This document shows positions 11,842 to 26,931 of a DNA stretch of 33,680 nt, one piece after another (position 1 is the first letter of the stretch; every line of letters begins with the position of its first letter). The notes below the pieces were generated by a model. It did not search any database, was not told the DNA's origin, and saw only the letters and a program-made list of their open reading frames with translations. The stretch covers positions 1-33,680 of the forward strand of contig JAAYCJ010000349.1 of assembly GCA_012729815.1 (NCBI GenBank), written 5' to 3'. A program made the position numbers and the translations under genes. The stretch is from Phycisphaerae bacterium (GTDB taxonomy: Bacteria > Planctomycetota > Phycisphaerae > JAAYCJ01).

Positions 11842-11865
11842 GGACGCCTCTACATCAGATCGAAC

Positions 11866-12513
11866 TCAGTAGTACACGACCCAGTAGCGAAGAAAGATGG
11901 GGTAATCGTCCGGGTTGGGCAACGGTCCCCAGGGGGCGGACTCGCTGAACCCGGTATGGGCTTTCCACTCGGCATGGCCGTCGAAGAAGAGAAAGGTGCC
12001 CGACCCGCGATGCATGGGCGGATTGACGTCGGTCTGGCCGAATGAGCAGTCGGACAGTCCCGAACCGAAGACGTGGGCCCGCTCGGCCAGCGTAATGGCG
12101 AAGGCGGTCTCGGCGCGGATGCGACGGGTATCGCCGTTGAGGCAGCCGGGCGCGGATGAACCCCACATGAACCCGTTCGGGCCATACGAGGCGTTCAGAA
12201 CCTGGAGATTCGGACACGTGACGATCCTGTCCTTGATCGTATAGCCCAGATCCCGCAATACGTCTTCCCATCGCGGGCAGTCGGGCGGCAGGAAATCGTG
12301 GTAATCGTCGCGATAGGTGGTCAGGATGATAGACCACTGGCGGAGATTGCTCAGACACACGGCCTCTCTCGCCTGTTCGCGTGCGGCGCTCAGGGCTGGA
12401 AGCAGGATGGCGACCAGAACGGCGATGATGGCCACGACGACCAGAAGCTCGATGAGGGTAAAACCGCAAGCTCGCATTCGACGACTGCCGGCAATTCCGC
12501 CCGTCATTGACAT
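11866..12513 (-). CDS. Prepilin-like protein with H-X9-DG motif
   Basis: The 215-aa protein has a 17-residue leader ending RRMRACG, followed by [20 protein letters not shown]. This is a canonical type IV prepilin/type II pseudopilin N-terminus with Glu at position +5 of the mature chain. Near the C-terminus [12 protein letters not shown] fits the H-X9-DG signature of planctomycete prepilin-like proteins exactly. It should be processed by a prepilin peptidase and anchored in the membrane. The chosen ATG lies one base after the regulator stop (TGA-G-ATG) with AGGAGGA five bases upstream; an ATG at 12537 is also in frame. The gene sits between the regulator and the GH2 enzyme, 24 bases before the latter. 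A role in displaying or exporting surface hydrolases is inference. Confidence 0.88.
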
Positions 12514-12514
12514 C

Positions 12515-13699
12515 TCATTCCTCCTCAACCGCCTCATCGCGGTGTTCCTGGACGCGTTCGACGATTTCGTTCAGCCGGTCGCCCGCGCGATCCCTGGCTC
12601 CGCAGGACTCGCGAACGACCAGGACCTGTCTGGCCCGCCCCTCGGCTTGGGCCGAACCGCCCGCGGCCAGGGCCTCAGCATGCCTGAGCATGCCGTCAGC
12701 GACGTAGTCGTAATCGAACTGAATGGTCGTCAGGGGCGGGTCGGCTGCGTGGGCCATCGGGATGTTCTTAAAGCCCATCAGGGCGACGTCCTCGGGAATT
12801 CGCAGTCCGCGCTTGTGCACCGCGGTCATCAGCCGCAAGGCGTCCTCATCGCCAAGGCACACCACCGCCAGGTCGCTCGCCATGCCGGACCATCGATCCA
12901 CCACCGCATCCACTTCCTCGGCCCGATGGCCCGCCAGAGCAATGTGCGTGGCCAACCCATGCCGCGATGCGAATCGCGAATACGCCAGAATCCGTCGCTG
13001 AAGGTCCGCTTCCTGCGTGTCCCATCCGAAGAAGGCGATATTGCCGTACCCCAACGCCCGGAAGTAGCAGCAAGCCATCTCCACCGCTTCGAAGCTCGCC
13101 CGGCCGAAGATCTCCGGTTTCTCAAAGCAGTGTCTCTCGAGACCGGCCACGGGCCCCGGCAGAACGAGCGGGCCTCCGACCGCCTGAACGAACCGCCACA
13201 ACCGCTCCGAAGGCGTGATGCGGGGAACCCAGGGCAGTATCAGGGCGAAACACCCCCGGGCCATCAGCTCCCGGCCGGCCTCCTCGGCGCCCAAATCAAG
13301 ATCGCCGATCGTGCGGATCAGCAGCTTCATCTCCCGGCGCTCAGCCTGAACGTGAAGATGATGCAGCAGTTCGGTCTGGAAGTTGTCCGGACCCGACGGG
13401 CAGATCAAGCCAACGGGATGACCCGTGCGGACCTCCGTCGCCCGTTCGGCCCTCCCAGTGCTGCGAGGCCCCCCTGCCGTCTCCCGGACAAAAGTCCCTG
13501 AACCGATGCGCCGCTCAATCTGCCGTTCCTGTTCGAGAAGGAGCAGCCCCCGGCGAACGCTGTGGTGGCTGCAGCCCAGGCGGCTGACCAGTTCCCGCTC
13601 CGACGGCAGCCTGTCGCCAGGGACAAGTCCTTGCGCCGCAATGATTTCCGTCAACGCGGCCTTGACCTTCTCATAGATGAAGGGACCGGATCTCGCCAT
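12515..13699 (-). CDS. GntR-type wHTH fused to LacI-like sensor, transcriptional regulator
   Basis: This 394-aa regulator has a GntR winged helix at residues 5-72 ([15 protein letters not shown], then [12 protein letters not shown] and GSGTFV). From about 95 to 370 it has a periplasmic-binding-protein/LacI-like sensor ([63 protein letters not shown]). This AraR-like architecture usually binds a sugar effector. GGAGG abuts the ATG and a second GGAGG lies 12 bases upstream. A consensus-like promoter and a 26-bp palindrome lie directly in front, so it probably represses its own operon, including the GH2 gene, until sugar binds. Its stop is separated by one base from the prepilin start. Confidence 0.9.
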
Positions 13700-13740
13700 C
13701 CTCCGTCATACCTCCAGAAACGCCAGTGGATAATAGCATA

Positions 13741-13766
13741 ACACTACCATAGCGCTTTGCTAGTGT
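13741..13766. promoter_or_regulatory. 26-bp palindromic operator of the GntR/LacI-type regulator
   Basis: The palindrome has outer arms ACACTA and TAGTGT, inner CA/TG pairs and a central AGCGCT, all centred at 13753.5. Eleven of 13 half-site positions pair. It overlaps the -10 box and expected start site of the regulator promoter, the classical position for a repressor. The assignment to this regulator is inferred from proximity. Confidence 0.65.
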
Positions 13767-13790
13767 ACCGGCGCGATCCACCCCTGTCAA
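13762..13790 (-). promoter_or_regulatory. Sigma70-like promoter of the regulator-prepilin-GH2 unit
   Basis: On the minus strand TTGACA (13790-13785) is followed after exactly 17 bases by TACACT (13767-13762). The -35 is perfect and the -10 matches four of six positions. The start codon of the regulator is 62 bases downstream of the -10, leaving an untranslated leader of roughly 55 bases. Confidence 0.65.
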
Positions 13791-13828
13791 GCAGATTTCT
13801 GCGGATAGGCGGGTGGAACGGTATGCGG

Positions 13829-13853
13829 ACTGGCCGATCAGGGATCAGCCAGT
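13829..13853 (-). terminator. Hairpin at the end of the ten-gene operon, no T-run
   Basis: ACTGGC and GATC pair with GATC and GCCAGT around an AGG loop, with one C/A mismatch. The structure spans the stop codon of the ThDP enzyme. No T-tract follows on the minus strand, so intrinsic termination is uncertain. It could also stabilise the 3' end of the long transcript. Confidence 0.3.
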
Positions 13854-15454
13854 TCCACCGTCAGTTCAATCAGGCAGATCCCTTTGCCGCCGACGGTGGA
13901 GGTCAGTGCATTTTCGAAGGCCTCCAATTCATCGGCGCGGAGGTAGTCGATGCCGTAGGCGTCAGCGAGTTTGTGGAAATCCGGGTTGACCAGATCGACG
14001 CCGAACCGTCGGCCCGCGAAGTTGCGGTCCTGGTTGGCGCGAATCGCCCCGAACACCCGGTTGTTGCACAGGACGACGGTCAGCGGCGTATTCTCCTGGA
14101 CCGCGACGGCCAGTTCCGTGGCGGTGAACTGGAAGCCGCCGTCGCCGATGACGCAGACGACCGGCCGGTCGGGACAGGCGATCCTGGCCCCGATCGCCTG
14201 CGGCAGCGATCCGCCGAGGCCGCCGTAGCCCATCGGGAACAGGAAACTGCGCGGGCGGTTGACGGGCATACAGCGGTAGATCCAGTAGCCGAGGCTGCAG
14301 CGGTCGGCGGCGATCACCGCCTCATCCGGGACAACGGCTCGGAAGACATCGAGCACCTTCATCTCGGTCGGGCCCTGAGCCCGCCGCTTGGCCAGGCGCG
14401 CCGCCTCCGCCCGTTTCGCGCGAGCAGACCATTCGGAATTGGCGACCCCCCTATTCGGCAGCGACTCGAGGATGGCCTGCAAAGCGGCTTTGGCGTCGGC
14501 GACGATGGCGACGTCGGGCGGGTACGACCGGCCGATCTCTTGCGGGTCGATATCGACGTGGATCAGTTTCTCGCCGAACCGGGTTTCCCAGGCGGCGGTG
14601 TCCTCCTGCTTGAACATCGTGCCGACGGCCAGCACCACGTCGGCCTCGGCGACCAGGTCGTTGACCTCGGTCATCAACGCGCCGTCGGCGAGGATGACGT
14701 TGGCGGCGGCACAAGGCACGATGCCGCGAGCAAGGATGGTGGGAATCACGATCGCGCCGATACGTTCGGCAAGCTGAACAAGTTCGGCGCCGGCATCGCT
14801 GGCCACCGTCCCGGTACCGGCCCAGATGACCGGGCGTTTGGCCTCGGCGAGCAGCCTGACGGCCGCCTCGACGGCTGACGCATCAGGGGCCAAACGTTCA
14901 GCCGGTTTTGGGTCCGGGATCGCCACCTCGGCCTCAGCGGCGAGAAGATCGCACGGAATCTCACAGAAGGCTCCGCCCGGCCGACCGGTCCGCAGGGCGA
15001 GCATCAACTCCGCGATAATCCGCGGAATCTCCTGCACGCTGCCCGCGCGTCGGACGTGGCGGCACACCGGCCGCATGATCTGGATGGCCTCGCCGCAATC
15101 GTGCAGGCCGCCGCGATTCCGGCCGACCAGGTCCGACCGGACGGTCGAGGCGACGGCCAGGACGGCTGAGGTGTCGGTGGTGGCCTGGCCCATGCCGCAG
15201 GCGATGTTGGCCACCGCCGGGCCGCTGGTGGTGGTCAGGACGCCGACCTTGCCGGAGGCGCGGTAGTAGCCATCGGCCATGAACGCCAGCCCCTGTTCGT
15301 GTCGGCCGAGCACGTGGCGAATCCTCTTCTGCCGAGCGAGGGCGTCGTAGACGGGCAGGCTGTGCCCGCCGGGAATGCCGAAGATCACCTCAACGCCGTG
15401 CGCAGCCAGACTCGCCGCCACCGCGTCGCCACCGGTCATTCGTTGCATGGTCAC
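13838..15454 (-). CDS. ThDP-dependent enzyme, acetolactate-synthase-like
   Basis: This 538-aa protein has the three-domain layout of the acetolactate synthase/benzoylformate decarboxylase family. The PYR domain carries the cofactor-activating Glu (E53 in GRHEQG). The central domain has the WAGTGTVAS and LIHVDIDPQEIGR segments. The PP domain has the ThDP motif from GDG (437-439) to NN (464-465). No regulatory subunit gene is nearby, which argues against a biosynthetic IlvB role. In a catabolic operon, a 2-keto-acid decarboxylase, carboligase or ring-opening hydrolase function is more likely, but the substrate is unknown. It starts at GTG inside a GTGA overlap with the iron-sulfur gene, with AAGGAG seven bases upstream. 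It is the last gene of the operon. Confidence 0.82.
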   Translation of the reverse strand: MTMQRMTGGDAVAASLAAHGVEVIFGIPGGHSLPVYDALARQKRIRHVLGRHEQGLAFMADGYYRASGKVGVLTTTSGPAVANIACGMGQATTDTSAVLAVASTVRSDLVGRNRGGLHDCGEAIQIMRPVCRHVRRAGSVQEIPRIIAELMLALRTGRPGGAFCEIPCDLLAAEAEVAIPDPKPAERLAPDASAVEAAVRLLAEAKRPVIWAGTGTVASDAGAELVQLAERIGAIVIPTILARGIVPCAAANVILADGALMTEVNDLVAEADVVLAVGTMFKQEDTAAWETRFGEKLIHVDIDPQEIGRSYPPDVAIVADAKAALQAILESLPNRGVANSEWSARAKRAEAARLAKRRAQGPTEMKVLDVFRAVVPDEAVIAADRCSLGYWIYRCMPVNRPRSFLFPMGYGGLGGSLPQAIGARIACPDRPVVCVIGDGGFQFTATELAVAVQENTPLTVVLCNNRVFGAIRANQDRNFAGRRFGVDLVNPDFHKLADAYGIDYLRADELEAFENALTSTVGGKGICLIELTVELADP

Positions 15455-16332
15455 TGTTTTGCTCCTTCAGGAAAGTTGCCGCTGGGCTTTCTCAGCCGTC
15501 CAAGCGGGCAACTGGTCATGCACTCGCGGCCGCACTGTTCGCCCCACGCGCTGGCTTTGTAGTAGTTCCGGCAGGCGTCCTTGTTGAACGCAGCCAACTT
15601 GTGGTCCGTCGCGCCAACTCTTAACTCGTGGCTTTCGCCGAAGGCGTGGGCTGGACAGCTACGCAGGCACAACGAACACTTCTCTCCGAGGCAGACTGAC
15701 TTCGTCAGCATCGCGTCGACCACCAGCGGCGCAGCGGTGATGACCGAGACGAGCCGTTGGCGAGGACCGTACTGCGGCGTCAGAAACAGGTTGTTAAGGC
15801 CAAACGTTCCCAGCCCCGCGGTGACGGCGGCATGGCGATGCGAAAACGGGGCGAATGCCTTCGGAGGATAGGGGAAATCCCACTGCACGTTGCCGGGCCA
15901 CGAGAGGGTCTGGCCGTACGTGGTGGGAAGATAGGCTGAGACGTGGCCCGCGCGTTCGAGAAACATGGCTGCATGCATGCTGAGGGCCTGGAGCTCGTTG
16001 TTGATGACCTCATAGGAGCACCGCCGTTCGACGTGCTTGCGGATCACGGTGCGAGGGCGCCACGTCTGCTGTTGCCCCGATTCGTCGGTGTAGACGTCCT
16101 CCTCTTTGATGATCTGGGACTCGGCCATGAAGTTGTTCCATCGCATCAAGCCCGAGACGATCGGCAGCGCGACGACCACGACGGAGCGGGCCTCGGGCAC
16201 AAAGTCCTTCGGCTGGTGCCCGGGCGGCGCGTCCTCGAATCGATCCACCGAGGCGACGCCGACGAGGGCGGCTTGGCGGCTCAGGTCGCGAATGTGATTC
16301 TTCAGAGCATCCGTCAGTTTCTGATCGTTCAT
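15451..16332 (-). CDS. QueG/reductase-like double [4Fe-4S] protein
   Basis: The 293-aa protein resembles the ferredoxin-type half of epoxyqueuosine reductase and reductive dehalogenases. It has the segment AAVTAGLGTFGLNNLFLTPQ, then a cluster motif CLGEKCSLCLRSCP (C-x4-C-x2-C-x3-CP) and a second motif CGRECMTSCPLG near the C-terminus, so two [4Fe-4S] clusters are likely. It is shorter than QueG, and no HEAT-repeat tail is visible. Placement inside a catabolic operon suggests electron delivery or reductive activation, not tRNA modification. It also lies beside a URO-D protein, a superfamily that includes corrinoid methyltransferases; a link to cobalamin is only an inference. The ATG at 16332 lies 16 bases after the preceding stop and is preferred to the upstream start at 16374. 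Confidence 0.75.
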   Translation of the reverse strand: MNDQKLTDALKNHIRDLSRQAALVGVASVDRFEDAPPGHQPKDFVPEARSVVVVALPIVSGLMRWNNFMAESQIIKEEDVYTDESGQQQTWRPRTVIRKHVERRCSYEVINNELQALSMHAAMFLERAGHVSAYLPTTYGQTLSWPGNVQWDFPYPPKAFAPFSHRHAAVTAGLGTFGLNNLFLTPQYGPRQRLVSVITAAPLVVDAMLTKSVCLGEKCSLCLRSCPAHAFGESHELRVGATDHKLAAFNKDACRNYYKASAWGEQCGRECMTSCPLGRLRKPSGNFPEGAKQ

Positions 16333-16348
16333 CGCTTTAAGCCTGTTT

Positions 16349-17977
16349 CTATTGCGGCGGCCGCACGGGCTCAAGGCCGGCGCGGGTAACGCGGAAACGG
16401 TCCATCCGCATCAGGGACTCGAACGAATCGTAGTGGACGTAGAGGACAACGTCCGGCTCGACCTCGATCATCGCGCCCATCGCCCACAAAGCCGAGTCGA
16501 GCATGGTGCCCTGGTCCCAGGTGCGACCGTCGTCCCAACTGCAGTGGATGGTCAGACCCGGCAAACGGTGGGCGATCAGGATGGCGCCGGACGCGGTCCG
16601 CAGCATGTTCGGCGCGGCATAGCCCGCGAACGGACCGCGCAGGCACGGGCCCCAGGTGGTTCCGCCGTCAGCCGACCAGGTCTCCCACATCCACGGCGAA
16701 AAGACCGGCCGGATCAACGCCATAATCCGCCCGTCGGAAATCTGCACGCCGCAGATTTCGGTCAGATCGAGATTGCCTTCATACTTGTTGCCCTTCTCGT
16801 CGAAGCCGGGCGTATCGACGTTGACCAGCGGCGACCACGTGCGCCCGTCGTCGGTGGATCGGCAGGCGTAGCCCTGGCAGTGAAACGAACCCCACGTGTA
16901 AATGGTCATATCCTCAGCCATCGGCTTGAAGCCGCCGTAGAGGAACATGACCATCGACTCATCGGCGAGGTTCATGAAGATATGCGGTCCGGCATGCAGA
17001 CCGGTGGTCCGGACGGCGCTGGTATCCAGACCGAGCGGCTCGGGCGGCGACCACGTGCGGCCGTCGTCGGCCGACTCAGCAGTATAGAAGTCATCGCCTT
17101 TCTTGCTCAGATAGATCAGCCGGCCTCTGGGCGTCCGATGGAGACGAGGCATCTGCCATTCATCGTCTCCGACGCCGAACTTCAGTTCCTCCGGCTTCGA
17201 CCACGTCCAGCCGTTATCGTCTGAACGGGCGAGCAATGCGGTGCTCTTGCCCTGATACGGCTTCTCCTGGACCACGTAGTTGAGCAACAACTCGCCGCTT
17301 TCCAGCCGCAACAGGTCGTTGGGCTTCTGCCACAGGCCGTAGTCGCGATCGGGGCAAGGGTGGAACCAGTGTCGCGGCTGACGGACCGCGTTATTCCACG
17401 ACGGCGGGACCGGTTCGGCTTGGACCGTCACGTCGCGGATGCCGGAGTCGCCGAAGCTATAGACGCCGACGCAACCGGCGTCGGAATAGCTGTCGTCGCA
17501 GGCCTCGAAGTATCCGTTTTCGCCGACGCGAACGGCGATCCGATCGCCGCGCAGGGTCACCTCCGCGGGCAGCCAGAGGTTCTTGTTGCTCGGAACCCGG
17601 CGGACCATCTCCAGTTTGATGATCTGAAGATAGCCGGCCTCATCCATCTTCGAGAAAGCCACCCAGAAATGTTGGGCCCGGCTGGCTTGGCCGCAGTTAG
17701 GGAAGTGCAGCAGATAGAAATGCGAGGCGTCGGCCGCCCTCAGCACGACACCGGCATCGCTGTGGCCGGTCAGGCGAAACTCGAAGCGAACGCGGACGTC
17801 GCGGCAGGCCAGGTCGCGATTGAAGGCATAGTGCACGCCCTGCATGCCCTCAACGTCTTGGCGGCGGAGTTCCTCGGGCACCGCCAGCAGGCCGTTCTCA
17901 CCGTCGCGCCAACGGCCGTTGACAAAGTGCCAGTGTCCGCCGTCACCCATGTGCAAGCTTGTCGTCTCGACCGGCAT
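16349..17977 (-). CDS. LamG-like plus sialidase (BNR) protein, no signal peptide
   Basis: This 542-aa protein begins with a concanavalin/3-keto-disaccharide-hydrolase-like beta-sandwich (about 1-190; VRVRFEFRLTGHSDAGVVLR, GVYSFGDSGIRDV). A six-bladed sialidase-type propeller follows. Five Asp-boxes of the S-x-D-x-G-x-T-W type are visible: SDDNGWTW, SADDGRTW, STDDGRTW, SADGGTTW and SWDDGRTW. No secretion signal is present from the chosen ATG, which follows a GGAAAGGACA ribosome site; the longer frame would add 44 atypical residues. Cytoplasmic sialidase-fold proteins often act on transported sugars other than sialic acid. It is the eighth gene of the operon and the second of two sialidase-like genes in it. 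Confidence 0.8.
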   Translation of the reverse strand: MPVETTSLHMGDGGHWHFVNGRWRDGENGLLAVPEELRRQDVEGMQGVHYAFNRDLACRDVRVRFEFRLTGHSDAGVVLRAADASHFYLLHFPNCGQASRAQHFWVAFSKMDEAGYLQIIKLEMVRRVPSNKNLWLPAEVTLRGDRIAVRVGENGYFEACDDSYSDAGCVGVYSFGDSGIRDVTVQAEPVPPSWNNAVRQPRHWFHPCPDRDYGLWQKPNDLLRLESGELLLNYVVQEKPYQGKSTALLARSDDNGWTWSKPEELKFGVGDDEWQMPRLHRTPRGRLIYLSKKGDDFYTAESADDGRTWSPPEPLGLDTSAVRTTGLHAGPHIFMNLADESMVMFLYGGFKPMAEDMTIYTWGSFHCQGYACRSTDDGRTWSPLVNVDTPGFDEKGNKYEGNLDLTEICGVQISDGRIMALIRPVFSPWMWETWSADGGTTWGPCLRGPFAGYAAPNMLRTASGAILIAHRLPGLTIHCSWDDGRTWDQGTMLDSALWAMGAMIEVEPDVVLYVHYDSFESLMRMDRFRVTRAGLEPVRPPQ

Positions 17978-18015
17978 GGAGTGTCCTTTCCAGCAATGGG
18001 CCGGGCCTACAGAGG

Positions 18016-18828
18016 TCACATTCTCTCGTTTCCAACCCGTTCGATCCACTCGAAATAGCACCGGTTGGCGTCCCACGGCAGGTCCATCATGCACGTACCG
18101 CACATGCACATACCGGTGACCCGCTGCTCGCGGATGAGTTGCTCAGCCAGGTCCAGGTGGCGTTTCATCAGGTCGGCTGGGATGTGCTTGCCCGTCCCGA
18201 AATCGTAGACGTAGAGGCACAGCAGCACGGGCTTCCCGCCGCTCAGGTCGGCCAGGCGGTCGAGGGCGGCGGGCACGGTGTCGATCTGCTCGGCATGCCA
18301 GAGCGGCACCAACAGATGGGCGAAGAACGGCAGCAGACCCGGCAGTTCGGGCCGATCGAGGCTCATCGTGTAGATCGTCCCGCCCAAAGGCAGTTGCGGT
18401 TGCTCCACGGCATTGGCGAACTGGAGCCGGGTCAGATGCTCCGGCCGAACGCCCGCATCAATGCTGCCGGTGCTGAAGTCGTCGATGTGGAACGCCTCGA
18501 CCCGCGGATCGGCCAAAGCCAGTTGCTTGGTCGCCCGAAGCTTGGCCAGCGTGTCCTCCGGATCCAGTTCAAACGTCCCGCCGCTCCCCTTGTGAATGGA
18601 AGTCTTGCAGATAAACCGCTTGGCTGACGGGATCGAGTCGAGAGTGGCCCGGTCGATCGGCAGATGGCCGGCCACGATGACGTTGCGAATGCCCGTCCGC
18701 CGGACCGCCTCTTCGGTGGTCAGCGCGGACTTGCCAAACTGCAACTGTGCGTAGTCGCTGGCCTCCTGCAGTGCGTTGACCTTCATACCCCACAGCCAGA
18801 GCCGATCGAGCATCCTGTCCTGTGTCAT
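18016..18828 (-). CDS. Conserved-looking protein of unknown function, TIM-barrel-like
   Basis: I do not recognise the family of this 270-aa protein. It has alternating strands and helices compatible with a TIM barrel: IRNVIVAGHLP, VEAFHIDDFSTGS, a mid-protein IYTMSLDRPELPGLLPFFAHL and KPVLLCLYVYDFG. Its C-terminus has a Cys/Met-rich segment, MCMCGTCMMDLPW, that could bind a metal. There is no signal peptide or membrane segment. AAGGA lies nine bases before the ATG. It sits between the URO-D gene (47 bases away) and the LamG-sialidase gene (38 bases away) on the same strand. Planctomycete genomes often place such proteins beside sialidase-fold enzymes, which hints at sugar metabolism, but no reaction can be stated. 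Confidence 0.7.
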   Translation of the reverse strand: MTQDRMLDRLWLWGMKVNALQEASDYAQLQFGKSALTTEEAVRRTGIRNVIVAGHLPIDRATLDSIPSAKRFICKTSIHKGSGGTFELDPEDTLAKLRATKQLALADPRVEAFHIDDFSTGSIDAGVRPEHLTRLQFANAVEQPQLPLGGTIYTMSLDRPELPGLLPFFAHLLVPLWHAEQIDTVPAALDRLADLSGGKPVLLCLYVYDFGTGKHIPADLMKRHLDLAEQLIREQRVTGMCMCGTCMMDLPWDANRCYFEWIERVGNERM

Positions 18829-18875
18829 GGTTGTGATCCTTTTCGGAAAAGAAGACCGGCGGGTCCTGAACCGCC

Positions 18876-20084
18876 CTACATGGGACTCAGCATACGTCCG
18901 CTCTTGCGCATCTCCTCTACAACCGCCAGAAGGTTGTCTCTGGGATACGGTGGAAACGAGTCATTGGTGTCGCCGATCATGTGACGGTGGCCGCGAACCG
19001 CTCCAAGCACGTATCGGACCCGTTCGCGAATGCTCTGGAGATCGGAGTCGTAGAACAGGTTGACGTTGACGGCGCCGCGGGTCACGACCCTCTTTCCCAG
19101 CCGGGCCCGTGCCGCCGGCAGATCGTCAACGTCGCCGAGAGGACCGTGAGAGAGGCTTTCGAGCACGTCCACGTCCATGGCGTCATAGACGCCCATGTCG
19201 ATCAACCGGCCCATCCGCCCGCAGGTGTGAACCCACGTCCGCAGGCCCAGCTCGTGGGCCCGCTGGTGGTGCCGCTTGGCCTGAGGGATGAAGTATTTCC
19301 GATAGATCGCGGGCGAGTAGAGCTCCAAGCCGTTGATCGCGTGGAGCACAAAATCGGCCCCGGATTCCGCGGCCCAGCCGAGCACGGCGGCGTCCGCTTC
19401 GGCCTGAATCGCAAAGAGACGTTCGAACAACGAAACGTGATCCTCCAACAGGAAGAACGCTTCGGTCGAGGCCATGTAGAGGTTGCAGGTGAGCACGAAG
19501 GCGGGTACGCCGATGCTGACATACAACGGGACGTCCGGAGGCATCATGGCCGCCCGCTGGGCGAAGCGACGCTGGACCAGCGCCTTCGCCTCGGGATTCT
19601 CAAGAACGGTGCGGGCGGCGGATTCAATCAGACGGGCCATCGCCGGCAGATCGCGCTCGCCCTTGACCAGATGCTCCGACCAGAAGCCGGGCCGATCGGG
19701 CACGGTCAGAAAGGCGTCGGAAAGCTCGCCCTCCGGCGTCCTGACGGTGGTTCGCTTCCGGACCGACCCGTCGGCGTCGCTCTCCTCACGAACCTCGATC
19801 TCGATGTCCGGCATCAGGCCGGCCAGGTCCAGCGGCGTCAGGCCTCCCATCGCCCAGACAAAGTCAATCCCGGTCTCCGCGCGGCACCGCAGGATCATCT
19901 CCGGAGTGACCGGGGACTCGGAGGCCAACGAAAACGACGCCGACTGCCCGCGCCGCCGCACCTCAGTGCCGAAGTACGAAGCCGCGGTCGCACGCGGATC
20001 GAACAGCACCACCGGCGTCAGGTCCGGGTCGCCGTCGATCATCCATTCCAGTAGTGGTTTGCGTACGGTCACCGTTTTCCTCAC
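18876..20084 (-). CDS. URO-D superfamily methyltransferase-like protein
   Basis: This 402-aa protein belongs to the uroporphyrinogen-decarboxylase/corrinoid methyltransferase superfamily. Residues 286-288 form the H-T-C motif in WVHTCGRMG, the position of two zinc ligands in MtaA/MtbA-type enzymes. The third Cys expected near the C-terminus is not evident, and TRGAVNVNL stands there. FIPQAKRHHQRAHELG and VLHAINGLEL are also typical of the family. Its start overlaps the stop of the preceding unknown gene as ATGA. Because a QueG-like iron-sulfur protein lies in the same operon, methyl or small-group transfer chemistry is possible. No corrinoid-binding protein gene is present, however, so this remains inference. 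Confidence 0.72.
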   Translation of the reverse strand: MRKTVTVRKPLLEWMIDGDPDLTPVVLFDPRATAASYFGTEVRRRGQSASFSLASESPVTPEMILRCRAETGIDFVWAMGGLTPLDLAGLMPDIEIEVREESDADGSVRKRTTVRTPEGELSDAFLTVPDRPGFWSEHLVKGERDLPAMARLIESAARTVLENPEAKALVQRRFAQRAAMMPPDVPLYVSIGVPAFVLTCNLYMASTEAFFLLEDHVSLFERLFAIQAEADAAVLGWAAESGADFVLHAINGLELYSPAIYRKYFIPQAKRHHQRAHELGLRTWVHTCGRMGRLIDMGVYDAMDVDVLESLSHGPLGDVDDLPAARARLGKRVVTRGAVNVNLFYDSDLQSIRERVRYVLGAVRGHRHMIGDTNDSFPPYPRDNLLAVVEEMRKSGRMLSPM

Positions 20085-21118
20085 TCCGCTGTGATCGGCG
20101 CTTCGAGCAGCCGCCGGCGGAAACCGTCGTAGTCAGTACCTTTGGTCACGATGTAGAACGAGTCGTCATCAACATCCCGCCGAATGGCGTTCAGGATCGG
20201 CACTCTCAGCCGACTGCCGCTGATGAGGAGGCGCGGATCCTCGCCGATCCGGCACGGCCCGGCCACGTTGTGGATCTCGGCTGACAGACCGCGTAGGTCA
20301 ACCGTGGCATAGCACTGCGGATCTCTCAACCGGCACCAGGCACGGGCGTAAAGGGCGACCGACCGGCCATCGCCGCCTTCCCACAAGAACAGCCGCACGT
20401 CGTGATCGAGGGCCAGACGCTCTCTGAACGTCGCGCCGACAAGACACCGCGCCCCGCTGACCGACAGCTCGAAGACGTTCTCAGCCGGCCGACGCAGGCC
20501 CAGGTAAGGCACGGTCATGGCCTTCCAGGTCATCGCGCATTGCTCGAAACCCTCGCCGAAGGCCACCGCCTCGACGGTCGCGGGATCGTACCGCAGATCG
20601 GCGTCAACCATCGCGGCGGCGATGTCGCGGGCGAAGAGGCGACTGACGTAAAGAACCTTGAGAACCGAAGTCCTCCACGGTCCGCGCGTCCGGGACCGGG
20701 CCTGCCTGATCTCCTCGACCAGCTCGGCGTGAATCTCAGCGGGCACGCCGGCCAGCCACTCGGCTTTGCCTTCGAGTCGGTCGTCGTCCAGAAACCGGCC
20801 GATCGGATTGTCGAGATCGTCCCAGGCGGCGGGCGGGTTTCTGACCGCCACGTCGGAAACCACGACGCACCGCCGTCCGAGCACCCGCGCCGCGTGATCC
20901 TCAATATCGACCATCGCCGGAGAGCTGCCGATGGGAAACAAGATCAAAACTTCATCCGCGCCCATCGAGTCCATATACGCCTTCTGAGCCTGGTTGCAGC
21001 GCCGCTCCCGCCCCAGACACGCCAGCCAGAGGCCCTCATCCTCGCCCGCGGGAACCCGGTCGCCGTGCGCCGCCCAGCAGGCGGGATGGAACATCAGGTT
21101 GATCTTGTTGATTCGCAT
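20081..21118 (-). CDS. Protein of unknown function in the ten-gene operon
   Basis: The family of this 345-aa soluble protein is not recognised. It begins MRINKINLMFHPACWAAHG and has a segment DEVLILFPIGSSPAMVDIED that could form a Rossmann-like or hydrolase strand-turn-helix. The middle is rich in Arg/Glu helices, and the C-terminal half is probably beta-rich (VFELSVSGARCLVGA, YATVDLRGLSAEIHNVAGPC). It contains ten or so cysteines without a clear cluster motif. The ATG at 21118 follows the sialidase stop by seven bases; the longer frame from 21151 would overlap that gene. The 3' end overlaps the URO-D start by four bases, so the two proteins are probably made in fixed ratio. Confidence 0.7.
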   Translation of the reverse strand: MRINKINLMFHPACWAAHGDRVPAGEDEGLWLACLGRERRCNQAQKAYMDSMGADEVLILFPIGSSPAMVDIEDHAARVLGRRCVVVSDVAVRNPPAAWDDLDNPIGRFLDDDRLEGKAEWLAGVPAEIHAELVEEIRQARSRTRGPWRTSVLKVLYVSRLFARDIAAAMVDADLRYDPATVEAVAFGEGFEQCAMTWKAMTVPYLGLRRPAENVFELSVSGARCLVGATFRERLALDHDVRLFLWEGGDGRSVALYARAWCRLRDPQCYATVDLRGLSAEIHNVAGPCRIGEDPRLLISGSRLRVPILNAIRRDVDDDSFYIVTKGTDYDGFRRRLLEAPITAE

Positions 21119-21125
21119 GGGAGAC

Positions 21126-22331
21126 TCACGCCAGCTCGCGCGTATTGACAATCCCCACCTCGATGTCTTCCTTATTGACCGAGTAGGTCACCAGCAGCTT
21201 CTCGCCGTCGCAGAAGCAATTGGGGTAGTGATAGCCGTCTTCCTTGTGTCGGCCGTTGATCCGACGCGTGGTCGGACCCTCGACCAGCGTGTATTGGCGG
21301 GTGAACTTGCGGCCATCGTCACTCAGGGCGATCCAGAGGGCCATGCGGTCCAACAGCCGCTCGTGGTTGTTGCCGACGATGTAGAACCGCCCGTCCGACA
21401 GCCGTCCGGCGAACGCGCGGGAAAACGAGTTCGGGAAGTCCGTGCGGACCAGGTCGCTCCAGGTCTCGCCGCCGTCGTCACTCCACGTGATCGCCAAGTA
21501 CCCGGAAATGCTAGAGTCCCGCTGGTACATCCAGATCCGCCCGTCGTCGGTCTGGTACCAGGTGCCCTGCTCGGGCAAAACGCCCTCATCGGAAATGGCG
21601 ATATCCACCACGCGCGGCGGATCGAACGGTCGCGACGGGTCGTCCCAGATCAGGACCATGCCGTGATGGTCGTAGAGGTCGAAGCCGCAGCACATCAGCT
21701 TGCCGTCGCGGGTTGGCCGCGGCCCTTCAAAAAGGTAGACGTTGGGACAGATGTTCTCGTAGTGCGTCCACGTCTTCAGGTCCGCCGTCTCATAGACGTC
21801 CAGCCGGATGTGCTGATCCTTCAACGTGCTCATGCCCGGCGGAGCCGTCTCACGCTCAAAATCCTTGGCCACGCAGACGTAGTTGTAAAGTTTGTCACTG
21901 GACGCGTAAAGCCCGGCGTTGTTCCGCACGAGCCTGCTGGCCACCGGCGTCGGAACAACCACGCCGTGAGGCGACCAGGTCGTGCCGTCCGCCGACGAGG
22001 CAAAGTGTATCTCCTGGCCGACGTAGTCCTCATGCAGAAACCCATTGGACCAGGACGTAACGTACCGGTCGCCGAATTTCGTGACGGCCTGGTGATGGCT
22101 GTAGGCCCAGGTTTTCTCGTCGCCGCGGTAGACCATCGACCGCCGGAACGGCACGTGCGGAAACTCGCCCCAGCCGTCGGGAATCACCGGATGCCAGTCG
22201 GTCAAAACGGGATACCCGGAGGCGATCGCAGCCACCTTCATGCGGTAATTCTGCATCCGCTTGGCCAGATCGCCGTCGACCACCCGCGCCACACGAAACG
22301 TATCCATCGCCATCGGCTGATTTGGGCTCAT
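21126..22331 (-). CDS. Sialidase-like (BNR/Asp-box) propeller protein
   Basis: The 401-aa protein has the repeated pattern of exo-sialidase-like propellers. The Asp-box motifs are SDDGGETWSD and SDDGRKFT, plus a weaker SSADGTTWSP. Each lies after a strand such as YLAITW, ALWIAL or EIHFA. No signal peptide is seen, so it is probably cytoplasmic. AGGAG is present 11 bases before the ATG. It starts 37 bases after the M20 gene and ends seven bases before the next gene. Catalytic residues of true sialidases (Arg triad, Tyr, Asp) cannot be assigned by eye, so activity on sialic acid should not be assumed. A role as glycosidase or sugar-binding propeller is plausible. Confidence 0.72.
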   Translation of the reverse strand: MSPNQPMAMDTFRVARVVDGDLAKRMQNYRMKVAAIASGYPVLTDWHPVIPDGWGEFPHVPFRRSMVYRGDEKTWAYSHHQAVTKFGDRYVTSWSNGFLHEDYVGQEIHFASSADGTTWSPHGVVVPTPVASRLVRNNAGLYASSDKLYNYVCVAKDFERETAPPGMSTLKDQHIRLDVYETADLKTWTHYENICPNVYLFEGPRPTRDGKLMCCGFDLYDHHGMVLIWDDPSRPFDPPRVVDIAISDEGVLPEQGTWYQTDDGRIWMYQRDSSISGYLAITWSDDGGETWSDLVRTDFPNSFSRAFAGRLSDGRFYIVGNNHERLLDRMALWIALSDDGRKFTRQYTLVEGPTTRRINGRHKEDGYHYPNCFCDGEKLLVTYSVNKEDIEVGIVNTRELA

Positions 22332-22368
22332 CTCGTCTGTTGCTCCTGTGAAAGGTGAAGTCTTGAGG

Positions 22369-23649
22369 CTAAAGGTCCTTGATTAACGTGGCCAGTGTGG
22401 CGGTCAGGTCCAGCACGTCCCGAATGCTGACCCACTCGTCAACGCCGTGTAGGTTGCCGCCTCGCGGCCCGAAAAGCACGCTCGGCATCCGGCCGATCTC
22501 ACCGTAGACCCCCAAGTCGCAGGAAAAGGGCGCACCGGAAACGACGGCCGATCCGCGAACCGCCTCAGCCGCCCGAGCGACGGCGGCGATGGCCGGATCG
22601 TCGCGCGAGGTCTCCCACGGACGAACAGAGTGGTACGTCTTCTCCAGAGCCAGATCAAACGGCTCCAAAGCCGGTTCAGTCTTCCGCTTGCCTTCCCAAT
22701 ACGCTTGGAACTCGGGATAGAAATGCTCTTCGGTCATACCCGGGTGACACCAGACGATCCACGAAACGCTGACCTCGCGCGGCGTGCCCATCTGGACCGT
22801 CTGTCCGCCGGCCCCGTTCTCGATCCGCCAGGCAAGCACGTTGAGTTCCTTGCCCGGACCATCGAACAGTTCATGCCGGTTCCTTTGTCGCCAGTGCGTT
22901 TGAAACTCGTACAGAAGCTCCACCGCCCTCGCTGCGCCCACCAGCGGATTGGCAATGGCATCGCCGGTATACGGCATGCCGCCCTTTCCGGTCAGCCGCA
23001 GATCGCCCAGAAACGCCCCGAAACATGCTGGGCAAACCTCCATCCCCGTCGGCTCGGTCACCACCGCCAGGTCGGCGTTATACCCCTTCAAACGAGCCGC
23101 CAGAGTGCCATTACCGCTGGCATACTCCTCATCCACCACGCTCTCGAAAAGCACGTCGCCGCGAGGCGCGAAACCCAATTCGCGAAGCACCCGCACCGCC
23201 CAGAACGCCGCCGCCAAGCCGCCCTTCATGTCGGCGCTCCCGCGGCCGTAGAGCCGCCCGTCCCGGACCACCGGCTCGTACGGCGGACAGACCGTCCACT
23301 CCGCTGGGTCCGACGGGGCCACGTCGCTGTGCCCGCTCAGCAGGATCGAGCGGCCGCCGCCCACGCCCCTCCACCGCGCCGCCAGGTTTTTTCTTCCACG
23401 GCTGTAGTCACGCCCGGCCAGCCAGAACGGATGCTCAGCCGCGCCGGCCATCTCCTGCGGCGAAAACAGATCGACCTCCAAACCAAGCGCGCGGCACTGC
23501 TCGGCCAGGTGAAGCTGGACGTCAGCTTCATCGCCGTCGGGCGGACGATTCTCGCTGGCGAACCGCACCAGGGCTTTAGTCCACTCGACGATGGCGCCGG
23601 CACGGTCGTCGACCGCCTCCTTGATCCGCTCGGCCGTCAGCTCGCTCAC
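22369..23649 (-). CDS. M20 family metallohydrolase (ArgE/DapE type)
   Basis: This 426-aa protein contains the complete M20 active site: H107 and D109 in GHSDVAPSD, bridging D140 in GSADMKGG, general base E174 with E175 in VVDEEYASG, E199 in VVTEPTG and H401 in GGNLHGVDE. It should therefore be an active di-zinc aminoacylase, deacetylase or dipeptidase. The dimerisation domain sits between about 205 and 320. The start is GTG at 23649, inside a GTGA overlap with the M24 gene. A longer frame from 23814 adds 55 atypical Arg-rich residues and is rejected. Coupling to a creatinase-like M24 protein suggests sequential hydrolysis of one amide or N-carbamoyl substrate. Confidence 0.88.
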   Translation of the reverse strand: MSELTAERIKEAVDDRAGAIVEWTKALVRFASENRPPDGDEADVQLHLAEQCRALGLEVDLFSPQEMAGAAEHPFWLAGRDYSRGRKNLAARWRGVGGGRSILLSGHSDVAPSDPAEWTVCPPYEPVVRDGRLYGRGSADMKGGLAAAFWAVRVLRELGFAPRGDVLFESVVDEEYASGNGTLAARLKGYNADLAVVTEPTGMEVCPACFGAFLGDLRLTGKGGMPYTGDAIANPLVGAARAVELLYEFQTHWRQRNRHELFDGPGKELNVLAWRIENGAGGQTVQMGTPREVSVSWIVWCHPGMTEEHFYPEFQAYWEGKRKTEPALEPFDLALEKTYHSVRPWETSRDDPAIAAVARAAEAVRGSAVVSGAPFSCDLGVYGEIGRMPSVLFGPRGGNLHGVDEWVSIRDVLDLTATLATLIKDL

Positions 23650-24812
23650 AGGACGATCACCTCCCGCCGCCAACTTGTCAACTCGCGCACGCCGTCCTCG
23701 ATGACGAGCAAGCCGTCCTCGTAGCGCAAGCCCTGCTGCCCGTCGCTCAGCCAGATGTCCACGTTGAACAGCATGCCCGGCTGGATGGCGAAATCCGCCT
23801 GCCGGGCCAGCCACAACCCTTCGACCTCCGAACTGCCGGTGCCGTGAGCCGGACCGTAAAGGGTGAACTCCTCATAGCCGTAGCGGGCGAGAATATCGTG
23901 GTAGCCCTGGAACACGTCAGCCGCCCGTACGCCCGGACGGATCGTCGCAATCGCGTACTCCATCGCCTCCAGCCCGACTTCCATCAGCTTGCGCGCGGAC
24001 TTCGGCGGTTCGCCGATCGAGAACGGCCGGCACATGTTGCCGCAGTAGCCCATGTACTTGGCCCCGAATGTGAACTGAACGAGCTCGTTCTCCTGAATCC
24101 GGCGATTCGTGGACCGGGCCAGGCTCAGCCGCGTGTTCGGGCCCGAGCAGGCCCACGCCGGATAACTCGCCCCTTCCGCCCCGGAAAGAACCATCTTCGC
24201 CCGCGCCGCAGCCTCAAGTTCCCACTCCCGCCGGCCGGGCTTCGCCTCAGCCATCGCCGCCTTCATCGCCTCCTCGGTGATGCGGTATGCCTCGACGATG
24301 TAGGGCACTTCGGCCGCCGATTTGATCGACTGCACCCGCCACAGCAGTTTGTCCGCCTCGACGTACTCAGCCTGCGGAGCGCCGCTCTTGAGATCCTCCA
24401 GCAGAACCGCTGGGAAGATGTTCCAGTTGGCCACGCCAACACGTTTCGGCGTCCTGCCGCAAACCCTGGGCAGAATCGTCTTGAAGCTCTCGCCTTCGAC
24501 CTGCGGCACCCATTCGGGCGGCGAGCTCTCGACCAGCAGCGGGTTGACCACGATCCGCTCGACCTTCGAAAACGACTTGGCGAACTCCAGCGACTCCGGC
24601 CCGCCGGTAACCAGCGCCGCCTCGCCTTCAGCGGGAACGATCACCGCTGCGAAATCGAAAAAAGGCCAGAAACCCGCCAGATACCGACTCGTCGCCGATT
24701 CGCATTCGCTGCTGTAGCCAACCAGCACGTCGAGCCCTTCCGCCCGCAGTTCCTCCTGCACCCGCGCAATCCGCCGCTGATACTCTGCCCTGCCCAACTC
24801 ATCCAACCGCAT
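23646..24812 (-). CDS. M24 pita-bread fold hydrolase, creatinase-like, metal ligands altered
   Basis: The 388-aa protein has the two-domain aminopeptidase P/creatinase layout: an N-terminal domain of about 155 residues and a C-terminal pita-bread domain. At the metal site the usual two Asp are replaced, T248 in VQFTFGAKY and N259 in YCGNMCR, with the normal 11-residue spacing kept. The His is present (H323 in GPAHGTG), the first Glu is D352 (FNVDIW) and the last is E365 (RYEDGLLV). Loss of the Asp ligands points to a metal-independent creatinase-type C-N hydrolase, not a proline peptidase. AAGGAGG at the regulator stop gives an excellent ribosome site. It is the second gene of the operon, coupled by four bases to the M20 gene. 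Confidence 0.82.
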   Translation of the reverse strand: MRLDELGRAEYQRRIARVQEELRAEGLDVLVGYSSECESATSRYLAGFWPFFDFAAVIVPAEGEAALVTGGPESLEFAKSFSKVERIVVNPLLVESSPPEWVPQVEGESFKTILPRVCGRTPKRVGVANWNIFPAVLLEDLKSGAPQAEYVEADKLLWRVQSIKSAAEVPYIVEAYRITEEAMKAAMAEAKPGRREWELEAAARAKMVLSGAEGASYPAWACSGPNTRLSLARSTNRRIQENELVQFTFGAKYMGYCGNMCRPFSIGEPPKSARKLMEVGLEAMEYAIATIRPGVRAADVFQGYHDILARYGYEEFTLYGPAHGTGSSEVEGLWLARQADFAIQPGMLFNVDIWLSDGQQGLRYEDGLLVIEDGVRELTSWRREVIVL

Positions 24813-24824
24813 ACAGGAACCTCC

Positions 24825-25499
24825 TTACATGGAACTACGGATCGCACTCGTGATCTCGCGGACGTACTCGCGGGCGCAGCGTTCCGCCTCATCGGGCTGA
24901 TGGGCGGCGATGGCCTCGACCATGTCCACAATCCGCCGGTTGTGCTCCGGCTCGTTGGCGATGTGGCTGAGGATCTCACGCTCCAACTCGCAGGACCGCA
25001 CCGCCAAGGGCGAAAGATGGTGCGTCTCCCAGACCTCCCCGAGCAGCGGATTGCCGCAGTTGGCCAAGAGGTACCGCCTAAACTCGCGAGCCGCCTCAAG
25101 CCGGGCGTCACGGTCCGCCGAACCGAAAAGCCCGTACATCCGCTCGGCCAGACGCTTGAGCTCCTCAATCTGCCAGCCGGTCATGTTCCTGGCAGCCAGA
25201 CGCGCCGCCTGACCCTCGATCACCTCGCGCAGCTCGTACCGGCAAAGCACCTCCTCGGGCTTCTGATCCTCGATGTACTCGACGAACCGCCCGCCGTAGG
25301 GCCCGCGGCTCCGCAGCACGCCCTCCGCTTCCAGGCGAACCAACGCCTCGCGAACCGGAACCCGGCCAAGCCCCAACTCGCGACACACCTTCGCCTCGGT
25401 CAGCCGCTCGCCCGGAGCAAACCCACCTGCCCGAAGGTTCTCCCTCAACAGCTCGTACGCTTGATCAGATTTTGATTTTCTAATAGCCACTGCTATCAC
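24825..25499 (-). CDS. GntR family regulator, FadR/FCD subfamily
   Basis: This 224-aa regulator has a GntR winged helix at 12-75 (ERLTEAKVCRELGLGRVPVREALVRLE, here split by the turn at GLGR) and an all-helical FCD sensor domain at about 85-215 (YELREVIEGQAARLAAR, FRRYLLANCGNPLL, HHLSPL, HQPDEAERCAREYV). FCD proteins usually bind small organic acids, with or without metal, and repress neighbouring catabolic genes. It is the first gene of the ten-gene operon. A near-consensus promoter and two TGTATACA palindromes lie just upstream, so autorepression with control of the whole operon is very likely. The M24 gene follows after 12 bases. Confidence 0.9.
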   Translation of the reverse strand: MIAVAIRKSKSDQAYELLRENLRAGGFAPGERLTEAKVCRELGLGRVPVREALVRLEAEGVLRSRGPYGGRFVEYIEDQKPEEVLCRYELREVIEGQAARLAARNMTGWQIEELKRLAERMYGLFGSADRDARLEAAREFRRYLLANCGNPLLGEVWETHHLSPLAVRSCELEREILSHIANEPEHNRRIVDMVEAIAAHQPDEAERCAREYVREITSAIRSSM

Positions 25500-25504
25500 C
25501 GTTC

Positions 25505-25530
25505 TGTATACACTTTATGGTTTGTATACA
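25505..25530. promoter_or_regulatory. Paired TGTATACA operators of the FCD regulator
   Basis: Two perfect 8-bp palindromes TGTATACA occur at 25505-25512 and 25523-25530, 18 bases apart centre to centre, so they lie nearly on the same face of the helix. FadR/FCD regulators commonly bind short GT-N-AC palindromes of this kind. Both copies lie between the -10 box and the regulator start codon, where bound protein would block transcription. Confidence 0.78.
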
Positions 25531-25536
25531 TTCGCG

Positions 25537-25565
25537 ATTATGCGCAACCCGTTTTTTCCTGTCAA
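25537..25565 (-). promoter_or_regulatory. Strong sigma70-like promoter of the ten-gene operon
   Basis: On the minus strand TTGACA (25565-25560) is followed after 17 bases by CATAAT (25542-25537), a match of 11 of 12 to consensus with ideal spacing. The first TGTATACA begins six bases after the -10. The preceding TolB-like gene ends 23 bases before the -35, so this promoter separates the two. Confidence 0.78.
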
Positions 25566-25588
25566 GGCATTTTCAGGCGATCAGCAGG

Positions 25589-26704
25589 TCAGGCGGGTTG
25601 CCAATGCGCCCACATAGCGCCCCAGCCGGCTTGAACGTTCGTGATGACGTCGGTCCGGCCGGTCTCGATGCACAGCACGTGAAGCTGGCGCAGGCCGCTG
25701 CGGGTGGAACCGAATACGAGGCTTCGACCATCGGGTGAAAACCGCGGGTGATAGTTGGCCGCCCCCCTGTCGCAATGGGTCAACCGACGTACCTCGCCGT
25801 CGCAGGTGGCCCGGAATAGCTCAACCCGATCGTCAATCGCCGCGGCGAAGCAGATCGACCGGCCGTCGGGAAACCAGATTGGCGTATCGCTGCTGCCTCC
25901 GTGAAAGTCGTACACGTCGAGGAACTCCACCACGCCGCGATAGCCGTTCCGGTCGGCGATCTTCCGCGGCTCGGTTCCATCCGGACGAACGATCCACGGG
26001 TGGCAGTCGTAATGCTGCCCGCTGACGAAGAGGATCCACTGCCCGTCGGGCGACCATACGGGGCCGAAGTTAAAGGGATTCCCGGTCGCCACGTGCGTCT
26101 TACTCGATCCGTCGGCGCGGGCGATGTAGACCTGGTAGTCCTCGTGATACGCCACTCGCCCGCCGTCGGGCGAGGCGCTGTAGCCGTACGCGAAACCGTT
26201 GGCGGTCTGCGAAAGGTCGCGTTTGTTGCGGCCGTCGATGTCCATCACGAAGGGATGCGAGACGCCGTCGATCAGGGCCGTAAACCCCAGCCGTGATGCG
26301 TCGCCCGGCCAGAAAAACAGCCCGGCATTGTAGTCGCTGACCCGCTCGACCGCGGTCGGACTGGTCAGCCGCCCCGTCGCCAGTTCCAGCAGGTGCATGT
26401 CACAGCGCCACCCTTCGGTCATGCGGAACTCCCGGTGGGCTTCCTCCCACGCGGCGTTCTCCGGACTCTCCCACCCGCAGCCGATCGCCGCGAACCGCCC
26501 GTCCGGCGACCATCCGGCGAACTGCGTCCACGTGTCGCCGTCGCCGATCAGTCCCTCAGCCAACACCGCCCGCCCGGTCCCATTGGCTCGCACCAGGCAC
26601 GCCCGCATGGTCGCCACATTGGCGTGCCGACCGCCGGGAAGGTCGGTGCGGTACTCGGTGTAGCCGATCCACTCGCCCGATGCCGTCGTCCTGCAAGCGC
26701 CCAT
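25589..26704 (-). CDS. TolB-like/WD40-like (PD40) beta-propeller protein
   Basis: The 371-aa protein contains repeated PD40-type motifs with a W/F-S-P-D-G core: AGWSPDGRFAAI, SASPDGGRVAY, VWSPDGQWILF, IWFPDGRSICF and RFSPDGRSLVFGS. The blades are separated by strands that include HPFVMDIDG and PWIVRPDG, giving a six- or seven-bladed propeller similar to TolB and oligogalacturonate lyase. No signal peptide is visible, so it is not a periplasmic TolB. A cytosolic lyase or binding role like that of oligogalacturonate lyases is possible, but no catalytic residues were identified. The ATG at 26704 overlaps the stop of a 21-codon ORF (TGATG). It is transcribed in the same direction as the ten-gene operon but ends before that promoter. 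Confidence 0.72.
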   Translation of the reverse strand: MGACRTTASGEWIGYTEYRTDLPGGRHANVATMRACLVRANGTGRAVLAEGLIGDGDTWTQFAGWSPDGRFAAIGCGWESPENAAWEEAHREFRMTEGWRCDMHLLELATGRLTSPTAVERVSDYNAGLFFWPGDASRLGFTALIDGVSHPFVMDIDGRNKRDLSQTANGFAYGYSASPDGGRVAYHEDYQVYIARADGSSKTHVATGNPFNFGPVWSPDGQWILFVSGQHYDCHPWIVRPDGTEPRKIADRNGYRGVVEFLDVYDFHGGSSDTPIWFPDGRSICFAAAIDDRVELFRATCDGEVRRLTHCDRGAANYHPRFSPDGRSLVFGSTRSGLRQLHVLCIETGRTDVITNVQAGWGAMWAHWQPA

Positions 26705-26769
26705 CAATGGTCCTCGCTATGGAATTCAGAGAGTCTATCGTTGTCTGATTGTCCACTCGTCGTGCTCAT
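26704..26769 (-). CDS. Possible 21-aa leader ORF coupled to the propeller gene
   Basis: An ATG at 26769, with AGGGG ten bases upstream, opens a 21-residue frame (starting MSTTSGQSDN, ending SEDH). Its TGA overlaps the propeller start codon as TGATG. Such coupling could be chance, and the peptide is hydrophilic and without motifs. Further upstream, 26770-26931 shows no convincing gene or promoter. Confidence 0.22.
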   Translation of the reverse strand: MSTTSGQSDNDRLSEFHSEDH

Positions 26770-26931
26770 GAGGATATCGCCCCTTCACCGTCTCACCAGT
26801 CACTGATCTTCCAGTACTGAGGCGGGAATCTAACCGGACATCGTCGCACAGACAAACAAAAAGCATGGAGGACTGGAGCATATGACCAATCAAACGACCT
26901 CGCCATCCGGAAGGCTGCAGGCCACCGTGCC

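Follow-up and report, generated by a model that had tools for sequence, protein, structure and literature searches.

A creatinase-like M24 hydrolase and an M20 deacylase as a candidate two-step C-N hydrolase module in a probably FCD-regulated operon of a Phycisphaerae bacterium

In ectoine catabolism EutD opens the ectoine ring and EutE deacetylates, both enzymes being required (PMC8739950, PMC5924519), and ectoine users have been reported nearly only from the Proteobacteria (PMC5924519). A gene pair of comparable design lies in a ten-gene operon of a Phycisphaerae bacterium (assembly GCA_012729815.1, contig JAAYCJ010000349.1; the 33,680 nucleotides analysed are called the window here), where the gene of a creatinase-like M24 pita-bread hydrolase (388 amino acids, aa; 23646..24812, minus strand) overlaps by 4 bases that of an M20 ArgE/DapE-type deacylase (426 aa; 22369..23649, minus strand). 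As with EutD-EutE (DoeA-DoeB), a catabolic pair, the gene of an M24-family C-N hydrolase stands beside that of a deacylase (PMC8739950, PMC5924519). The reading we favour, with a probability of about 0.55, is that the two form a C-N hydrolase module of the EutD/EutE kind, M24 plus an exchangeable amidase, set within a locally assembled, FCD-controlled cytosolic catabolic operon and acting on an N-substituted, probably sugar-derived compound. The differences from the ectoine system are nonetheless considerable: the window M24 is recognisably DoeA-like (E = 1.8e-19), yet it scores 70.2 bits against a cut-off of 613 for the DoeA/EutD model TIGR02993, the deacylase is a Peptidase_M20 with no EutE model among the matches listed, and the operon has neither a MocR/GabR regulator nor an ectoine transporter. 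The creatinase/creatininase system is also similar in part, in that creatinase (1chm) is matched by the M24 profile and creatininase-family genes follow M24 in 23 of 71 related loci, whereas the window operon encodes no creatininase, sarcosine oxidase or N-methylhydantoinase. Catabolism of ectoine or creatinine as such was rejected, curated cut-offs not being reached and partner genes lacking.

The M24 protein belongs to its fold by a Pfam M24 match of 4.8e-40 and a creatinase-type N-terminal domain (Creatinase_N, 6.3e-07), and it has the fold and the best PDB sequence match (prolidase 1wy2, E = 5.5e-30) in common with the prolidase/Xaa-Pro peptidases (M24B). Compared with solved prolidases, however, both metal-binding Asp residues are replaced (T248, N259), an Asp (D352) stands in for the first Glu, and H323 and E365 are kept; the full metallopeptidase ligand set of two Asp, one His and two Glu is not present. 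Across the subfamily of the window enzyme, which comprises 84 sequences from 14 phylum-level groups, the first ligand Asp was lost in 80 of 84 and the second in all 84, and the His and the last Glu were kept in every one. On these alignments the subfamily, which is uncharacterised, has lost two of the five metal ligands. Creatinase 1chm, a weak match in a single-sequence search (6.7e-12), rose to 9.6e-31 in the M24 profile search, and from this rise together with the ligand loss we take the window M24 to be creatinase-like, probably metal-poor and not an Xaa-Pro peptidase.

The M20 protein (Pfam 1.7e-33) carries GHSDV, GRGSADMKGG, DEE, EPTG and C-terminal His motifs that align with 3pfo and DapE, and retains all the motifs of an active zinc deacylase; it is a full-length match to the ArgE/DapE-group deacylases (PRK06837, 220.8 bits; 3pfo, 6.1e-34), below the family cut-off of 376, and the substrate is not transferable. 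When the M24 profile was run against 84,980 species, each represented by one genome, eight Verrucomicrobiota-like loci came to light in which M24 is 71-73% and M20 59-61% identical to the window proteins. The two genes adjoin or have at most one small gene between them in all eight, and in all eight they are preceded by a Gfo/Idh dehydrogenase and a small VOC-like protein (so labelled by eye, with no Pfam match); none of the other eight operon genes was found within 10 kb of the pair. When these partner genes were sought elsewhere in the window's own genome (a draft of 5.47 Mb, 97% complete, with 3.8% estimated contamination), the VOC-like protein had no match and Gfo/Idh only paralogs of 22-38%. 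In the tree the window M24 falls into a 10-row clade with the Verrucomicrobiota loci and one further locus, L063 (support 100/100; related loci carry L numbers), and is sister to the Verrucomicrobiota M24 (support 93/71). The arrangement of M24 plus deacylase, overlapping in the window and neighbouring in the eight loci, is the only pair out of the ten genes that persists in other bacteria.

In the wider subfamily, sampled as 71 other M24 loci (L065-L135), the second enzyme is exchanged. A CE4-like polysaccharide deacetylase gene lies within 3 kb of M24 in 31 of the 71 and a creatininase gene in 23; all are on the strand of M24 and most stand immediately downstream of it. Their densities per 100 kb within 3 kb versus 3-10 kb are 8.3 versus 0.0 and 6.2 versus 0.2, respectively. 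Both classes occur together in a single locus and are nearly mutually exclusive (Fisher p = 1.7e-6, shared ancestry not corrected for), whilst in L065 and L071 the gene downstream of M24 is that of an amidohydrolase. The window M20 occupies the same position relative to M24 as do these enzymes elsewhere. M20, CE4-like deacetylases, creatininases and amidohydrolases all include enzymes that cut non-peptide C-N bonds, and it is for this reason that we propose a C-N module of two steps whose second enzyme can be exchanged. Proteins with a Glyco_hydro_20b domain and the Anabaena sensory rhodopsin transducer (ASRT), which has been argued to bind sugars (PMC2739507), accompany many M24 loci and place them in a sugar context; Gfo/Idh genes are found in related loci too. 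ASRT genes adjoin M24 in 14 of the 71 loci, no rhodopsin gene having been noticed nearby; examples of ASRT genes beside M24 are L028 3477-3851, L044 6341-6703 and L086 1189-1560. A literature search for an association of M24 with CE4 or creatininase found no paper, nor any on the M24 pairing described here.

A broader form of the proposal, which we put forward tentatively and at slightly worse than even odds, is that M24 represents a widespread metal-poor subfamily, in at least 14 phylum-level groups, that provides the first enzyme of two-enzyme modules which are interchangeable, the gene directly downstream encoding the second C-N hydrolase: M20 in the window and the Verrucomicrobiota, and a CE4-like deacetylase, creatininase or amidohydrolase elsewhere. 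The modules would have a common type of N-substituted, sugar-derived substrate, and the window would hold one FCD-controlled version. If so, the family would be half of a modular C-N hydrolase pair and no peptidase, even though sequence searches in many uncultured phyla would name its members Xaa-Pro peptidases, and the question of its substrate would be testable, with four different partner enzymes pointing to the same kind of bond.

The operon itself consists of ten minus-strand open reading frames (25499-13838), classed by Pfam, with intergenic gaps of 7-47 bases and three 4-base GTGA overlaps (M24/M20, the unknown gene unk6/URO-D and Fe-S/ThDP) after the starts had been refined by ribosome sites and homologs. 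None of the ten genes encodes a transporter, and simple hydropathy, the only method applied, revealed no signal peptide-like or transmembrane stretch in any of the ten products. The sequence-only reading of this DNA had listed ten such genes with gaps of at most 47 bases, no transporter and a single promoter at 25565, and all of this was borne out; its four overlaps came down to three with the refined starts, and of its gene classes FCD-GntR, M24, M20, the two BNR_2 propellers, URO-D and the thiamine diphosphate (ThDP) enzyme stood by Pfam, whereas the QueG likeness proved weak and confined to the C-terminal half and the LamG domain assigned to the larger propeller had no Pfam match. Its view of one regulated operon agrees with the layout, the promoter and the operator described below.

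The promoter is of sigma-70 type, TTGACA-17-CATAAT (25537..25565, minus strand), with 11 of 12 consensus matches, and is one of only two sigma-70-like sites within 12500-26800, the other being at 13790. Shuffles yield a mean of 2.1 such sites, and the count by itself is no evidence; the operon promoter stands above chance because a tandem operator, TGTATACA-N10-TGTATACA, for which shuffles of the window give an expectation of 0, lies close by. The two palindromes of this operator (25505..25530) are placed between the -10 box and the start of the first gene, that of a GntR/FCD transcription regulator (224 aa; 24825..25499, minus strand; FCD 1.7e-19, GntR 1e-14), and are the probable FCD binding site. 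With its FCD and GntR domains and a palindromic operator at its own promoter, which it presumably binds, the protein has the make-up of an FCD-type local regulator. By exact search the two operator copies of the 8-mer TGTATACA are the sole copies in the 5.47 Mb genome, and the regulator looks dedicated to the ten-gene operon since the word has no copy elsewhere. As a control, TGTATACA read backwards occurs once in the genome, which indicates that words of such make-up are rare there. The operator also served to seek co-regulated transporter genes, and no further exact TGTATACA was found in the genome, mismatched sites not having been searched. The genome-unique site makes this an unusually clean FCD regulator-operator pair for finding the inducer.

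Under the favoured reading the ten genes would be a single catabolic operon that acts in the cytosol and is inducible, its FCD protein most likely repressing it at the tandem operator until a pathway intermediate takes the regulator off. M24, its two-metal site probably lost, would hydrolyse a C-N bond of amide, amidino or cyclic type, and the M20 zinc deacylase would strip an N-acyl or N-carbamoyl group, the two acting in sequence as EutD and EutE do (PMC8739950). In other phyla the same M24 subfamily would work with a CE4-like deacetylase, a creatininase or an amidohydrolase as its second enzyme. An N-substituted sugar derivative is our best guess at the substrate; the cytosolic propellers and the TIM barrel encoded in the operon may act on an imported glycoside to free it, and the URO-D, Fe-S and ThDP enzymes may process the remaining carbon skeleton. 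These propellers, the barrel and the three enzymes appear to be components that glycan loci of these phyla use again and again and that were assembled locally in the window.

Several observations weigh against the favoured reading. The whole set recurs nowhere, which leaves the joint function of all ten genes resting on the operon; M20 was found in none of the 71 wider M24 loci, and the M24-M20 pairing is thus confined to one clade; the partner counts ignore shared ancestry, each partner nonetheless being spread over several phyla; and the Asp at the position of the first Glu ligand was partly fixed by the search pattern that retrieved the relatives. The contig could moreover be misbinned, given the estimated contamination of the draft and the location of the M24-M20 relatives in another phylum.

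Conservation of the set was examined in relatives retrieved by patterns and in evenly drawn samples, a non-exhaustive collection with no same-genus genome among those searched. Besides the window's own genome, homologs of unk6 were present in 4 of 61 genomes (a strong one in a single case), of unk4, the second unknown gene, in 7 of 392 and of M24, at 32-36% identity, in 2 of 294 from its own class and phylum. Fe-S had only partial, distant relatives in two phyla (294 and 289 genomes searched). Within the phylum URO-D had no close relative (246 genomes searched) and ThDP a single 50% ortholog (199 genomes searched), with none of the other nine genes beside it. No second copy of the operon was found in the genome searches with these six genes or in the 84,980-species M24 scan, in no relative do three or more of the ten orthologs stand together, and the Fe-S gene is absent from the nine genomes of the M24-M20 clade, weak QueG-level matches aside. 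A conserved ten-gene set was accordingly rejected on the strength of seven whole-genome searches together with the M24 scan. The sequence-only reading had posited just this, a ten-step route, not described before, that would break down an N-acylated or N-carbamoylated amino sugar and be common to several phyla as a set, and had named break-up of the set in close relatives as the outcome that would refute it. The enzyme classes are compatible with such a pathway, and the sugar setting of related loci is genuine, yet no relative that was retrieved keeps the set intact, and this version is now very improbable. The ThDP ortholog sits in an unrelated cluster, and URO-D is not enriched near M24. What survives of the sequence-only reading is M24/M20 as a C-N bond pair, through the conserved adjacency, the loss of prolidase ligands and the C-N hydrolase partners in other phyla, and the sugar or glycan setting, through related loci with a GH20-type hydrolase domain, ASRT, PfkB and Gfo/Idh genes. 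The same break-up would suit a mosaic in which unrelated glycan-locus genes, a transferred M24-M20 pair included, came to lie behind one promoter with no single pathway, all the more as M24-M20, unk4 with the LamG/BNR gene, and ThDP each have different neighbours elsewhere and as Fe-S, ThDP and unk6, like M20, occur in none of the 71 wider M24 loci. We nevertheless consider a mosaic less likely, if by some way the strongest of the alternatives, because the three overlaps, small gaps, dedicated regulator and genome-unique operator argue for selection as a unit, and because similar classes recur together independently: FCD-GntR, M20, PfkB kinase and M24 in L063, with URO-D directly upstream of M24; FCD, BNR, HpaI-type aldolase and M24 in L046; URO-D, M24, a polysaccharide deacetylase-like gene and unk4 in L028; and BNR, an unk6 homolog, HpaI-type aldolase and URO-D in L008. 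The L063 M20 and URO-D are not close orthologs of those in the window (22-23%). A coherent glycan-derived pathway may still be at work, since the enzyme classes co-occur though the orthologs do not.

A third account would make the URO-D superfamily protein (402 aa; 18876..20084, minus strand; Pfam 5.4e-9) an MtaA/CmuA-type methyltransferase and the double-[4Fe-4S] protein (293 aa; 15451..16332, minus strand) a corrinoid-linked reductase, which together take a methyl group off an N- or O-methylated substrate that M24 and M20 then finish. MtaA/CmuA is indeed the best NCBIfam match of URO-D (TIGR01463, 1.2e-6), L063 carries a partial MTTB gene along with two URO-D genes, and the Fe-S protein, by its Cys positions and profile matches, has a distant RdhA/QueG-type C-terminal half, RdhA and QueG both being cobalamin proteins (PMC4646009). 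This account is improbable, since the URO-D match reaches 28.1 bits against a cut-off of 235.4 and none of the ten genes encodes a corrinoid-binding protein. By eye, URO-D keeps an H-x-C motif (HTCG) but has GDTND where MtaA has a third zinc Cys. URO-D was also rejected as a habitual partner of M24, its densities per 100 kb within 3 kb and at 3-10 kb being nearly equal (0.8 and 0.6), although it adjoins M24 in L063 and L028. The Fe-S protein resembles QueG and the reductive dehalogenases over its C-terminal double-[4Fe-4S] half only (E about 1e-8) and lies far below the curated cut-offs, with 33.9 bits for QueG (TIGR00276, cut-off 200) and 36.5 bits for reductive dehalogenase (cut-off 160). 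At a first look the window's genome holds 48 URO-D candidates, which points to a large expansion of the superfamily. A tandem array of this Fe-S family stands in L047 (5850-9997): three open reading frames in a row encode relatives of the window protein, one of which is 744 aa long and matches it twice.

Two of the remaining genes encode BNR_2 propellers (Pfam 2.6e-21 and 1.1e-15): a sialidase-like protein of 401 aa (21126..22331, minus strand), cytosolic by sequence and with one canonical Asp box, and a protein of 542 aa (16349..17977, minus strand), which the sequence-only reading had called a LamG-sialidase, with five Asp boxes and an N-terminal domain lacking a Pfam match. They have the BNR propeller of secreted sialidases, and by simple hydropathy no hydrophobic N-terminal stretch; without a secretion signal they would have to act in the cytosol and not, as first supposed, on the glycan side. 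The gene of unk4 (270 aa; 18016..18828, minus strand) codes for a predicted TIM barrel with a conserved DD and several Trp residues, whose model (predicted local distance difference test score 85) found glycoside hydrolase-like barrels in a fold search at a template-modelling (TM) score of about 0.5. Homologs of the 542-aa propeller (35-40%) adjoin unk4 in L023 and L024, which come from other members of the phylum; unk4 is fused to the LamG/BNR propeller in L024 (9620-12130) and adjacent to it in L023 (7905-12012), which suggests that the two form one functional unit. The unk6 protein (345 aa; 20081..21118, minus strand), whose gene shares its 4-base overlap with URO-D, has an N-terminal alpha/beta part, and its predicted model had no credible PDB match (best TM score about 0.2); a PHROGs search with unk4 and unk6 gave no match.

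The last gene of the operon, overlapping the Fe-S gene by 4 bases, encodes a ThDP enzyme of the acetolactate synthase/decarboxylase group (538 aa; 13838..15454, minus strand) that is complete by Pfam. In L168 (1807-10780), from another member of the phylum, its 50% ortholog has Fe-ADH and DAO genes as neighbours and a fused hydantoinase A/B gene not far away. A search of the window against Rfam gave no match. Beyond the operon the next transcription unit (6811-13699) comprises genes for a GntR-LacI hybrid regulator, a pilin-like N-methylation protein and a 1676-aa GH2 protein with a LamG domain, and the hybrid regulator gene has its own promoter (13790-13762).

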